DNA of 43,959 nt, taken from NCBI GenBank assembly GCA_012728595.1, contig JAAYEU010000083.1, positions 1 through 43,959 on the forward strand, given 5' to 3'. The notes beneath the pieces are model-generated. The model made no database searches. It was given only the letters and a program-made list of their open reading frames with translations, and was not told the DNA's origin. Positions 21,496 through 26,560 of this stretch are shown piece by piece; position 1 is the first letter of the stretch, and every line of letters begins with the position of its first letter. The translations under genes and the position numbers were made by a program. The stretch is from Tissierellia bacterium. Lineage in GTDB: Bacteria; Bacillota; Clostridia; Tissierellales; Tepidimicrobiaceae.

Positions 21496-22019
21496 TGTTA
21501 GAGATAATATCCTTAAGCATAGTACCTTTTATGGTATTGATAATTTTAGTCCATGGATATATAAAGGGGATAGATTTATACAATACCTTCATCGAAGGGG
21601 CCATGGAAGGCTTTAAGACGGCAATAAAAATAATGCCCTACTTAATAGCCATATTCATAGCCATAGGCATCTTTAGGGCTTCAACCGCCTTAGATATCTT
21701 CACAAGCCTTCTAGAACCTATTATTGGCCTAGTTGGAATACCAAAAGAAGTCCTCCCCCTAGTAATAATAAGACCCCTATCAGGTTCAGGTGCCCTAGGA
21801 GTAGTAAGAGACATAATAGCCAACTACGGCCCCGACTCCTATCCAGGAGTTATAGCTTCAATAATGATGGGTTCCTCAGAAACCATCTTCTACACCTTAA
21901 GCATCTATTTTGGCTCCATAGGAGTAAAAGACTACAAACATACCTTAAAAGCGGCCTTATTGGCTTATGTAATTTCTATTTTTACAACAATACTTATTTG
22001 TAATTATTTTTATTTATAA
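21495..22019 (+). CDS. spmB: Spore maturation protein B
   Basis: 'GAMEGFKTAIKIMPYLIAIFIAIGIFRASTALDIF...RPLSGSGALGVVRDII'; start overlaps the spmA stop. Confidence 0.92.
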   Translation: MLEIISLSIVPFMVLIILVHGYIKGIDLYNTFIEGAMEGFKTAIKIMPYLIAIFIAIGIFRASTALDIFTSLLEPIIGLVGIPKEVLPLVIIRPLSGSGALGVVRDIIANYGPDSYPGVIASIMMGSSETIFYTLSIYFGSIGVKDYKHTLKAALLAYVISIFTTILICNYFYL

Positions 22020-22086
22020 AACAGTTAGCTTGTGTAAAAAAATCATGAATTGTAAATTGTTAATTGTCCAGCTTGTATTAAAATTT

Positions 22087-22286
22087 GGTGGTAGTCACCA
22101 GCATATTTATAAAGAACGGCATCTCCGGCGAAAGATTTGGCCAATATCACGACACGGGGAAAAATAGGTTTGCAAACTCGCTTCGCTCAAACAGTGCAAA
22201 CCTAAACAATTTTTCCCCTTAGTCGGATATTGGCACAAATCTTCCGCAAGTCGAGCCTTTTCTTTATAAATATGCCTCCTTCTGCC
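22087..22286. repeat. Structured inverted-repeat element, copy A
   Basis: Nested arms CATATTTATAAAGAA/TTCTTTATAAATATG, CCAATATC/GATATTGG, CGAC-AC-GGGG/CCCC-TTA-GTCG and AGGTTTGCA/TGCAAACCT. Confidence 0.85.
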
Positions 22287-22351
22287 ATGAATACTTACAT
22301 ATAGGTGTTAGTTAAGAATTATCACAAGTTTTTAATTTGCAAGCTTAAGCA

Positions 22352-22540
22352 AGACATATTTGGGAAGATAAGCCCCGACTTATGAGAGATTCGTTTGAAG
22401 TATCCGACTAAGGGGAGAAAACCGTTTGGCCGCTTCTGAAAGCGACAGCGGTTAAGCGGCCGTTTTCTCCCCGTGTCGTGATACTTCTCGAATCTCGAAT
22501 CGGAGGTGGCGTTCTTCCCAAATATGTCGTGATAGCCACC
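22352..22540. repeat. Structured inverted-repeat element, copy B (opposite orientation to A)
   Basis: Arms CATATTTGGGAAGA/TCTTCCCAAATATG, GAAGTATC/GATACTTC, CGAC-TAA-GGGG/CCCC-GT-GTCG and GGCCGCTT/AAGCGGCC; its reverse complement aligns with copy A. Confidence 0.85.
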
Positions 22541-22543
22541 TAT

Positions 22544-22574
22544 ATTCAATGTACAATTCACAATTCACAATTCA
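22544..22574. repeat. ACAATTC heptamer repeats bordering copy B
   Basis: attcaatgtacaattcacaattcacaattc; related gaattgtaaattgttaattgtcc at 22047-22069 borders copy A. Confidence 0.7.
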
Positions 22575-22575
22575 A

Positions 22576-22604: not shown

Positions 22605-23630
22605 CTATTCTAAAATGTACACTTTTACTTTCCTTCTGCCAAATTGTCTTACTTCTTTGGCGGTGTTGAAGAATAGATCAATTCTATTCCCTTTGATTGC
22701 CCCGCCTGTGTCCTCTGCTACACAAAAACCATAATCTGGTGTTCCATCAAGGCTTTCCACATATAATTTAGTTCCTAGGGGTATTACCCTTGGATCCACT
22801 GCAACTACTCCCGGTCTGGCCTTAGTACCTGAAGCTGTAATGCCATAGTATTTGTCCCCAGGCCTTTTGCCAGTACTTTCGTAGGACAAGTCATATGCAG
22901 TTGCTACCATGGTAATGGCCTTTTTATACCTTATATTTCCCCTAGAAGAAGCTAAGATGCTTTTAGTTCCCTTTTCTACAATATGAGGAACGGCTTCTTT
23001 GACAATCTCTTCTTCTATAATCTCCTTAGCTGTCAATTGGCCATTTTCAAATACTTTTTTCACCTTTATCCTCTTAAGGCCATCCTGTCCTTCTTGTATT
23101 GTGTTTTCAGTGCCTATATCCAGCCTATCGTTCTTCCTTACTATGTTCTCATGAGGAATTGCCTCCTCATGTTCTTCCACTACCTCATTGACCCTTACCA
23201 CCAGTATTTCTGAACCTGGAGTAGTTACCTCATCAAGGGCTGGATAAGTATAATCCTTCTCTCCTAGTTCCACCTTTAAATCCTCTAATATATCTCGGAC
23301 TTTAGTGTGAACCGACTCTACCTCATGCTTTTTATCTCCAAATGCTAATATATATGGTTTAGGCGTCTTTATGATAATATTCATATTGTTTTCCACTTTA
23401 GCATCTAATGGTAGGTTGATATATGCACCCTCTTTTAGTTCAATATTTGCTTCTTTAAGGACATCCCCTACAGTATCTCCATGGGTGACAATATTCCTCT
23501 CCTCCCCATCTATGGAGATGGTAATGTCCTTAGCAGTGTGCATATATACCCCTAAAGATAGAGTTGCAGTTATAGCGAGGACAGTCAACATCTTAATATG
23601 TTTTGCTTTTGTGACTGTAAAGTTTTCCAT
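22605..23630 (-). CDS. YabE-like cell-wall protein: DUF348 repeats, G5 domain, 3D domain
   Basis: 'ITISIDGEERNIVTHGDTVGDVLKEANIELKEGAYI', G5 segment, and 3D motif 'TASGTKARPGVVAVDPRVIPLGTKLYVE...AEDTGGAIKGNRIDLFF'. Start at ATG 23630 (MENFTVTKAK). Confidence 0.9.
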   Translation of the reverse strand: MENFTVTKAKHIKMLTVLAITATLSLGVYMHTAKDITISIDGEERNIVTHGDTVGDVLKEANIELKEGAYINLPLDAKVENNMNIIIKTPKPYILAFGDKKHEVESVHTKVRDILEDLKVELGEKDYTYPALDEVTTPGSEILVVRVNEVVEEHEEAIPHENIVRKNDRLDIGTENTIQEGQDGLKRIKVKKVFENGQLTAKEIIEEEIVKEAVPHIVEKGTKSILASSRGNIRYKKAITMVATAYDLSYESTGKRPGDKYYGITASGTKARPGVVAVDPRVIPLGTKLYVESLDGTPDYGFCVAEDTGGAIKGNRIDLFFNTAKEVRQFGRRKVKVYILE

Positions 23631-24219: not shown

Positions 24220-24354
24220 CAAATCACTCCTTAAAAATATAACTAATATTATTATATGAAAAAGATAAATACTGGTCACAAGAATAAAACGCCTTGACAA
24301 ATTAAGACTTTTACTGTATATTTTTGAAGTAAATAAAGAAAGATAAAATAAAAG

Positions 24355-24612
24355 GTAATGAAGGGAAGAGTAGGTTTAATCTGAGACCTTAGAGAGCTGG
24401 GGGAGGTGAAAGCCAGCGTCGAGGATTATTCCGAACATGGCCCCTAAACTTTACAGCTGAAGGCTAGTAGGCCGTAACGGTAGCACCCGTTATCATGTGC
24501 CGGGTTATGTATGTAACCTACTGAGGTTTAAACTGCGAAGTTTAAACGAATTAGAGTGGTAACACGAAATGTAAGCTTTCGTCTCTATATAGATGATGAA
24601 AGCTTTTTTTGG
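24355..24612 (+). ncRNA. T-box leader upstream of metG
   Basis: T-box core agagtggtaacacg (24553-24566), terminator aagctttcgtctc...gatgatgaaagctttttt, Stem I-like gtgaaagccagcg, and GAACATGGCC with candidate Met specifier AUG. Confidence 0.88.
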
Positions 24613-24646: not shown

Positions 24647-26560
24647 ATGAAAAAATACTACATTACAACGCCTATATACTATCCTAGCGACAACTTGCAT
24701 ATAGGGCATACTTATACCACAGTAGCAGCAGATACTCTAAAAAAGTTTAAAATCGCTCAAGGCTATGATGCCTATCTTGTAACTGGTTCCGATGAGCACG
24801 GTCAAAAGATTCAACAAAAGGCTAAGGAACATAATATGGAACCAAAGGAATATGTAGATAAGATAGTAGCGGATATTAAAAAGCTTTGGGATATGTTAGA
24901 AATCTCCTACGATGAATTCATCAGGACTACCGATAAGGAACATGAAAAGGCAGTACAAAAGATATTCAAAACCCTCTACGACAAGGGAGATATCTATAAA
25001 TCCCATTATGAGGGTATGTATTGTACTCCTTGTGAAGCCTTTTGGTCGGAAAGCCAGTTGGTGGATGGAAAATGCCCTGACTGTGGCAGAGAAGTTCACT
25101 TAGCTAAGGAGGAAGCCTATTTTTTTAGACTATCCAAGTATAGGGATAGACTTATTAAACTCTTTGAAGAAAATCCAGACTTCTTACAGCCGGAATCTAG
25201 AAGGAACGAAATGCTAAATAACTTCCTAAATGAAGGCTTAGAGGACCTCTGTGTATCCAGAACTAGTTTCGACTGGGGTATAAAGGTGCCCTTTGATCCT
25301 AAACATGTAGTCTATGTTTGGATAGATGCTCTAACCTGCTATATTTCCGCCTTAGGCTACGGAAGCAAAGATGATGAAAACTTTAAAAAGTATTGGCCAG
25401 CAGATGTCCATCTAGTAGGAAAGGAAATAGTAAGATTCCATACCATCATATGGCCAGCCCTCTTGATGGCCTTAGATATAGAATTGCCTAAGAAGGTATT
25501 TGGCCATGGCTGGATATTATTCGAAGACGATAAGATGTCTAAATCCAAGGGTAATGTCATCTATCCCGAGCCTATAATAGAGCTTTATGGAATAGATGCC
25601 TTTAGATATTTCCTACTGAGGGAATTTTCCTTTGGGCAAGATGGCTCCTTCTCCAGGGAGAAATTCTTGCAAAGATTAAATTCAGATTTAGCCAACGATT
25701 TAGGAAACCTAATAAGTAGGACTGTAACCATGGTAGAAAAATATAATGGAGGACTTCTACCCAGCCCAGTAAAAGAAGAAGAAGTAGATAAGTCATTAAT
25801 AGAGATGGCAACTAAGGCATCCGATAAAGTGGAAAAATATATGGATGAATTGAACTTTAGCCAGGCCTTAGAGGAAATTTGGAAGGTAATTAGAAGGACC
25901 AATAAATATATAGATGAAACCACTCCATGGATATTGGCAAAGGAAGGAGAAAAGGAAAGGTTAGATACGGTATTATACAACCTAACTGAAAGCATAAGGA
26001 TAATAGCCCACTTGATAAACCCATTTATGGGAAGAACCTCAGAAGAGATATTAAATCAAATTGGATTCAAGGAGAAATTAGATTGGCAGGATACTAAAAA
26101 GTGGGGTAAAATGGAAGCAGGAACTAAATTGACCAGAGGAAAGGTACTCTTCCCAAGGCTGGATATTCAAAAGGAGCTTAAAAAGCTTAACGAAGCCAAT
26201 GAAAAATTGATAGAAGAAAGGAGCAAAAAAGTGGAAGAATATATATCCATAGATGATTTTGCAAAGATTGAATTAAGAGTAGCAGAAATAATAGAAGCTA
26301 AGGACCATCCAAAGGCCGACAAACTTTTAATATTAAAGCTTAAGGTAGGAGAAGAGGAAAGACAGGTGGTATCGGGAATAAAGGAACACTATAAAGCAGA
26401 AGACCTAGTAGGCAAGAAGGTAGTAATCGTAGCAAACTTGAAACCCATTAAGCTTAGGGGAGAAGAATCAAAGGGAATGGTATTAGCTGCAGAAAAGGAT
26501 GGTAAGTTGACCTTGGTATCCACCCTTGAGGATATAGATTCCGGTGCTAGCATATCATAA
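24647..26560 (+). CDS. metG: Methionyl-tRNA synthetase
   Basis: 'YYITTPIYYPSDNLHIGHTYTTVAADTLKKF', 'KMSKSKGNVIYPEPI', C-terminal tRNA-binding domain. Confidence 0.97.
   Translation: MKKYYITTPIYYPSDNLHIGHTYTTVAADTLKKFKIAQGYDAYLVTGSDEHGQKIQQKAKEHNMEPKEYVDKIVADIKKLWDMLEISYDEFIRTTDKEHEKAVQKIFKTLYDKGDIYKSHYEGMYCTPCEAFWSESQLVDGKCPDCGREVHLAKEEAYFFRLSKYRDRLIKLFEENPDFLQPESRRNEMLNNFLNEGLEDLCVSRTSFDWGIKVPFDPKHVVYVWIDALTCYISALGYGSKDDENFKKYWPADVHLVGKEIVRFHTIIWPALLMALDIELPKKVFGHGWILFEDDKMSKSKGNVIYPEPIIELYGIDAFRYFLLREFSFGQDGSFSREKFLQRLNSDLANDLGNLISRTVTMVEKYNGGLLPSPVKEEEVDKSLIEMATKASDKVEKYMDELNFSQALEEIWKVIRRTNKYIDETTPWILAKEGEKERLDTVLYNLTESIRIIAHLINPFMGRTSEEILNQIGFKEKLDWQDTKKWGKMEAGTKLTRGKVLFPRLDIQKELKKLNEANEKLIEERSKKVEEYISIDDFAKIELRVAEIIEAKDHPKADKLLILKLKVGEEERQVVSGIKEHYKAEDLVGKKVVIVANLKPIKLRGEESKGMVLAAEKDGKLTLVSTLEDIDSGASIS

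Follow-up and report, generated by a model that had tools for sequence, protein, structure and literature searches.

The intergenic DNA at 22087-22540 of the window is probably a single copy of a non-autonomous mobile element with ends that fold as single-stranded DNA (ssDNA). The window is the whole stretch of DNA analyzed, 43,959 nucleotides from a Tissierellia bacterium, and in it the element occupies the gap between two convergent genes, whose stop codons flank it: one gene is spmB-like (ending at 22019) and the other yabE-like (ending at 22605). Its two hairpins, A and B, face each other across a spacer and, judging from sequence comparison, form the opposite ends of a single composite element. 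An earlier note on this DNA had described two divergent copies of a structured element without coding potential; we found that there are indeed two hairpins and no coding potential, but that the hairpins are better read as the ends of a single unit than as independent copies.

Architecture and conserved fold of the element

The element has the following parts:

22087-22540, no strand: the whole two-hairpin element (A-> spacer <-B); the convergent pair recurs elsewhere, and the outer ends are approximate
22087-22100, + strand: left TIR-like end, outside hairpin A, GGTGGTAGTCACCA, a GTGG.AGTCCCCG-like block
22101-22275, + strand: hairpin unit A (covariance model 184 bits; MFE z -11)
22123-22126, + strand: CTCC, 5' side of the outer asymmetric internal loop of A, conserved opposite AAGTCG while the adjacent stems vary
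22149-22155, + strand: extrahelical A, CGAC and inner-loop AC of hairpin A (facing TTA at 22219-22221), kept in nearly all family units
22180-22186, - strand: tip of A, bottom strand GCGAAGC
22248-22253, + strand: AAGTCG, 3' side of the outer asymmetric internal loop of A, conserved opposite CTCC
22287-22351, no strand: spacer of ~65 bp separating the hairpins, its A-side part common to locus L010
22354-22527, - strand: hairpin unit B (covariance model 193 bits; MFE z -10)
22442-22449, + strand: tip of B, read as GCGACAGC on the bottom strand of this unit
22527-22540, - strand: right TIR-like end, outside hairpin B, GGTGGCTATCACGA, a GTGG.AGTCCCCG-like block

The self-complementary arms quoted in the earlier note were readily confirmed, those at 22101-22116/22260-22275 being 100% and those at 22350-22368/22513-22531 95% complementary. 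Complementarity also extends between the hairpins, reaching 75% over the 63 nt of 22102-22164/22464-22526. In many copies a GTGG.AGTCCCCG-like block immediately flanks the hairpins on the outside, and the length of the spacer in the other copies varies between 16 and ~200 bp. Inverted heptads, (GAATTGT)n and (ACAATTC)n, stand on either side of the element at 22047-22068 and 22547-22575; they are apparently a separate intergenic repeat, since similar heptads occur at the unoccupied site in the relatives G017 and G010.

The convergent hairpin pair was seen again at six loci (L010, L011, L026, L062, L063, and L087), and such pairs are present in the genomes G002, G003, G009, and G014. On contig C127 of the window's own genome the order is reversed, B preceding A, at 95-96% identity. 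G009 has a locus at which two hairpin subtypes are paired and another at which they stand in the opposite order, which indicates that the two ends are distinct subtypes. A genus from another family of the order (G031, G057, and G072) carries several copies of a ~490-bp sequence that likewise consists of two facing hairpins with TIR-like ends, AGTACTTTCTTTTAACATAGTGC, outside them, and its stems are entirely different; there the two hairpins are evidently copied together, as a single unit. TIR-like ends outside the hairpins also occur in G011 and G017. Deletion forms at L018, L019, and L003-L005 keep both ends and have lost the middle, short forms that would be expected from internal deletion of a two-hairpin unit.

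Copy A can be aligned over its full length with the reverse complement of copy B, at ~69% identity. RNA folding gave -93.1 and -99.7 kcal/mol for A and B (z -11.3 and -10.4), values matched by 0/200 shuffles, and folding of the window hairpins with DNA parameters gave z -10 to -13 on both strands. The earlier note had claimed that the copies changed yet remained paired, and once 55 units were aligned this proved to be far above chance: 94.8% of pair cells were standard, and double compensatory changes, affecting both sides, were found in 47 of 53 pairs, a result reached by 0/500 shuffles. The covariation score of the 55 units was 0.467, as against 0.165 when shuffled and ~0.09-0.11 when the alignment was slid by one column, a shift that also lowered pairing to ~50%. 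One such change converts CGAC/GTCG to CGGC/GCCG, both sides jointly, in G005, G009, and G015. The constant parts are those left unpaired, namely CTCC facing AAGTCG, the extrahelical A, and AC facing TTA. Covariation across the 55 units therefore supports the earlier proposal that selection acts on structure and not on sequence.

Distribution and mobility

A DNA search returned 15 matches, some of them partial, in the genome that carries the element and was also positive in 18 of 41 relatives. With a covariance model built from 16 units, the hairpin was detected in 15/20 genomes of the window's family, with up to 18 copies. A second model, built from 55 units, matched 39/199 genomes of the order in 25/78 genera, a count that includes some doubtful weak matches because the arrays of family f4 score despite their different internal loops. 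These f4 arrays are tandem, direct repeats of similar long hairpins with a period of ~270 bp (L149, 1292-2008; L147, 919-1617); they have the same tip and different internal loops and were treated as possibly a separate class, so that the weakest order-level matches may belong to a neighboring, different kind of hairpin. Exact-pattern matches came from Clostridium sp. Cult3, Tissierellia MAGs, and one Candidatus Epulonipiscium MAG. Thus the covariance-model search suggested in the earlier note, which had named a lack of further copies as counting against its reading, yielded many. The Rfam comparison that it had also suggested provided no match describing the element, as all matches to it, taken at E up to 5, fell far below the cut-off. 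Rfam over the window recorded only a T-box elsewhere, a leader at 24349-24589 (119.9 bits) directly 5' of a 637-aa ORF (24647-26560) that is probably metG. Literature searches for the tip sequence and for hairpin repeats of Clostridia returned nothing relevant.

Comparison of insertion sites showed occupied and unoccupied states. The spmB-yabE gap measures 585 bp in the window, 540 bp in G009, and 5-103 bp in ten family relatives, and the hairpin pair that fills it in G009 has stems unrelated to those of the window. In principle, the two occupied sites could be ancestral, with losses elsewhere. A site at fliW is filled in G031 and G057 and short in G072. The copies are nearly all intergenic (2/59 fall inside an ORF call), and their flanking genes are in tandem in 37 cases, convergent in 18, and divergent in 4, so that divergent promoters are avoided. 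No target-site duplication was found in the G031/G072, G017/G012/G019, and G057/G031 comparisons, which lacked a clean base-level junction; the sole close-relative comparison available for junctions involves a deletion remnant and not a clean empty site. In G011 and G017 the left end is sharp (TATGAATTATGTGTCG...) and the right end similar (TTAGGTGTCGTA...). A search for an autonomous copy by TIRs alone found none, its TIR-only matches in G011 being contig ends; longer copies could be hidden there, because the assembly of Clostridium sp. Cult3 (G011) has contigs that break off within the element. No recombinase belonging to the element was found either.

Most copies in the genus of G031, G057, and G072 fall within a region of 50-70 kb with many flagellar genes and not on the dnaA contig (G072, C7, 107-178 kb; G057, C19, 45-96 kb; G031, C43, 19-70 kb). 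In G002 (contig C152, locus L026), a hairpin pair at 565-1115 sits exactly between perfect parS-type sites, TGTTTCACGTGAAACA, at 471-486 and 1175-1190. Clustering at the origin of replication, hinted at by these parS sites and by a DnaA-like fragment at L177, was rejected, as the G031 copies lie off the dnaA contig and dnaA of G017 lies 580-760 kb from the copies. An origin in phages or plasmids was also rejected, since phages, plasmids, and viral contigs contained no match to the element. A cargo transposon was considered for L060, where a pair flanks an M29-type aminopeptidase-like gene; two separate insertions are equally likely because this gene adjoins ordinary metabolic genes. A common bacterial repeat, GTCATCCTGAG...GAAGGATCTTGA, occurs near several hairpin copies (in the right flanks of L143-L146 and L156).

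Nature of the fold and competing explanations

An RNA fold tolerates G-U but not A-C mismatches, with the reverse holding for the other strand, whereas a DNA fold favors neither. Over 67 units, which are related and hence phylogenetically non-independent, we counted 74 G-T and 68 A-C mismatches, and three subsets restricted to pairs predicted on both strands gave ratios of 14:18, 14:15, and 10:11; SAM riboswitches from genomes of the same family, used as a control, gave 45:0. The tip GC-G(N)1-2A-GC was found on the bottom strand of 78/110 units and on the top strand of 1, with a mean of 1.1 in shuffles, and four further units carry CCC-G(N)1-2A-GGG, in which the stem is altered beneath the same loop. 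These tips comprise 38 triloops and 40 tetraloops, of which 7/40 are GNRA. GNA and GNNA loops closed by at least two G-C pairs form ultra-stable DNA mini-hairpins (PMC4686876), and in both window copies the bottom strand folds slightly better than the top as DNA. Earlier work on the STAXI motif likewise drew on tip loops in weighing ssDNA against RNA, with the argument running the other way (PMC2864571). Together, the mismatch symmetry and the DNA-type tip loops disfavor a structured RNA and suggest that the hairpin shape is used as folded ssDNA. The mobile element and the DNA-structure element, two of the three options in the earlier note, are thus supported jointly, and its third, a structured RNA, is disfavored. 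A structured non-coding RNA, or an RNA processing or terminator hairpin, spread as a repeat would fit the extreme stability of the RNA fold, the strong covariation, and the location of most copies downstream of genes, but neither strand has the G-U excess of the riboswitches, the triloops and non-GNRA tetraloops do not suit it, no U-tract terminator is present at the hairpins, and Rfam holds no match; we regard it as improbable. Arm-to-arm correction during replication could also be a source of mismatch symmetry, and a neutral origin, in which template-switch correction keeps the arms of long palindromes complementary without selection, would account for both that symmetry and the common palindrome-type deletions. 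Such correction would, however, be expected to remove features that are in fact conserved, namely the asymmetric loops, the tip restricted to the bottom strand, and the extrahelical A, and this origin seems to us very improbable.

Two further explanations concern how the element moves. It could be an ordinary MITE, mobilized by a DDE transposase acting on double-stranded TIRs, with the hairpins as passengers or as cis enhancers of transposition or expression. TIR-like ends flank the hairpins in G011, G017, and the G031 genus, which argues for this, as do the internal-deletion forms that retain the ends only; terminal inverted repeats, multiple copies, lack of coding capacity, and insertion-site polymorphism were all observed. 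We nevertheless consider it rather unlikely because it leaves unexplained both the bottom-strand DNA tip loops and the ~175-nt folds that keep their asymmetric loops across families despite stem turnover, and because the analysis revealed no transposase that bears such TIRs. Movement of a REPIN-like or TIRtron element by a Y1 (HUH) transposase of the RAYT/TIRYT type would supply the single-strand mechanism that suits the DNA evidence. Y1 transposase-family genes, mostly of 260-320 aa, occur in 18/20 family genomes, and inverted palindrome pairs at extragenic sites are as in REPs (PMC3116915, PMC3733652). But the covariance model found no full hairpin at 24 Y1 loci, and its two or three matches there were short or weak; several Y1 genes bear other TIRs; the GTAG tag is not conserved; and G005 has hairpins and no Y1 match, while G008, G016, G018, and G019 have Y1 genes and no hairpins. 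With no full hairpin beside the Y1 genes, different TIRs on several of them, and a distribution that does not follow that of the hairpins, a link to RAYTs is unproven. We judge this explanation unlikely.

The Tissierellia RAYT/TIRYT-like Y1 genes have long TIRs of their own (GGGACAAGGGGTC..., CCGTCCCC...), as at L254 (1248-1283/2205-2240), L253, L261, L266, and L271, and are apparently TIRtrons. At L266, a 60-nt partial hairpin match (2340-2399) lies between the TIR arms of a TIRYT element, the only such association.

Our preferred explanation remains a mobile element with ends that fold as ssDNA, akin in kind to MITEs and REPINs but long and elaborately structured. Its unit would run from a TIR-like end through a ~175-nt hairpin, a short spacer, and an opposite-orientation ~175-nt hairpin to another TIR-like end. 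The bottom strand of each hairpin would become exposed as ssDNA, for example at replication forks, and would fold together with its GNA/GNNA DNA mini-hairpin cap; the asymmetric loops, kept constant while the stems vary freely, would then form the shape by which a recombinase or transposase acting in trans recognizes it. This enzyme would move the element or take the facing hairpins as its left and right ends. The sequence data show the copying, the filled and unfilled sites, the structure, and the strand bias; the enzyme and the step of ssDNA recognition are what we infer. More tentatively, the element may represent an undescribed mobile class, widespread in Clostridia and Tissierellia, whose ~175-nt ssDNA end folds are read by shape by an enzyme outside the Y1, IntI, and DDE pairings, with stems free to change in each genome and the loops, extrahelical base, and GNA/GNNA cap held; this possibility is still a doubtful one. 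There is a real chance that the recognition system is new. If the preferred explanation is right, this would be an unusual instance of sequence comparison by itself distinguishing folded DNA from folded RNA, by mismatch symmetry and strand-specific DNA tip loops. It would add to the order a large structure-read mobile element, none having been described in the literature searched, and make it testable which enzymes recognize ssDNA by shape. It would also warn that covariance models of bacterial intergenic regions may capture DNA elements that look like RNA.

Comparison with known systems

In the IS200/IS605 family, ssDNA hairpins serve as recognition sites, a likeness to the present element, but IS605 hairpins are short and are not terminal inverted repeats. 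The element shares with MITEs such as Correia and ERIC its small size, non-coding nature, intergenic location, TIR-like ends, hairpin fold, and deletion derivatives (PMC10969869). It differs from them in its two separate facing hairpins, its DNA-type tip, and a fold conserved across families with rewritten stems. REPINs and REPs with their RAYTs are also extragenic inverted palindrome pairs with several types per genome (PMC3116915, PMC3733652), mostly found between tandem or convergent genes and proposed to move as single strands. REPs are, however, 20-40 bp long with a conserved GTAG or CGTC tag (PMC3116915, PMC3733652), whereas the units described here are ~175 nt long, have conserved internal loops, lack a conserved tag, and have no full hairpin beside Y1 genes; GTAG appears at some ends only (GTGGCTGTC, GTGGCAGTT), with others elsewhere. 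TIRtrons, the TIRs of TIRYT genes, are similarly long, sometimes self-complementary, and found as dimers and clusters (PMC3733652), but the TIR-bearing Y1 genes in these genomes have other, shorter TIRs (e.g., GTGGGACAAGGGGTCAGACC in L254), and the 24 Y1 loci contained no full hairpin.

Integron attC sites are, like the element, imperfect palindromes with extrahelical bases, a variable tip, and poor sequence conservation, read by shape as a folded bottom strand (PMC2727003). At 57-142 nt (PMC2727003), they are much shorter than the units described here, which occur in facing pairs and apparently outside any cassette array, and no attC R-box consensus (RYYYAAC/GTTRRRY) was visible by eye at the aligned ends. 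The element resembles REPINs or attC sites in manner and apparently belongs to neither family.
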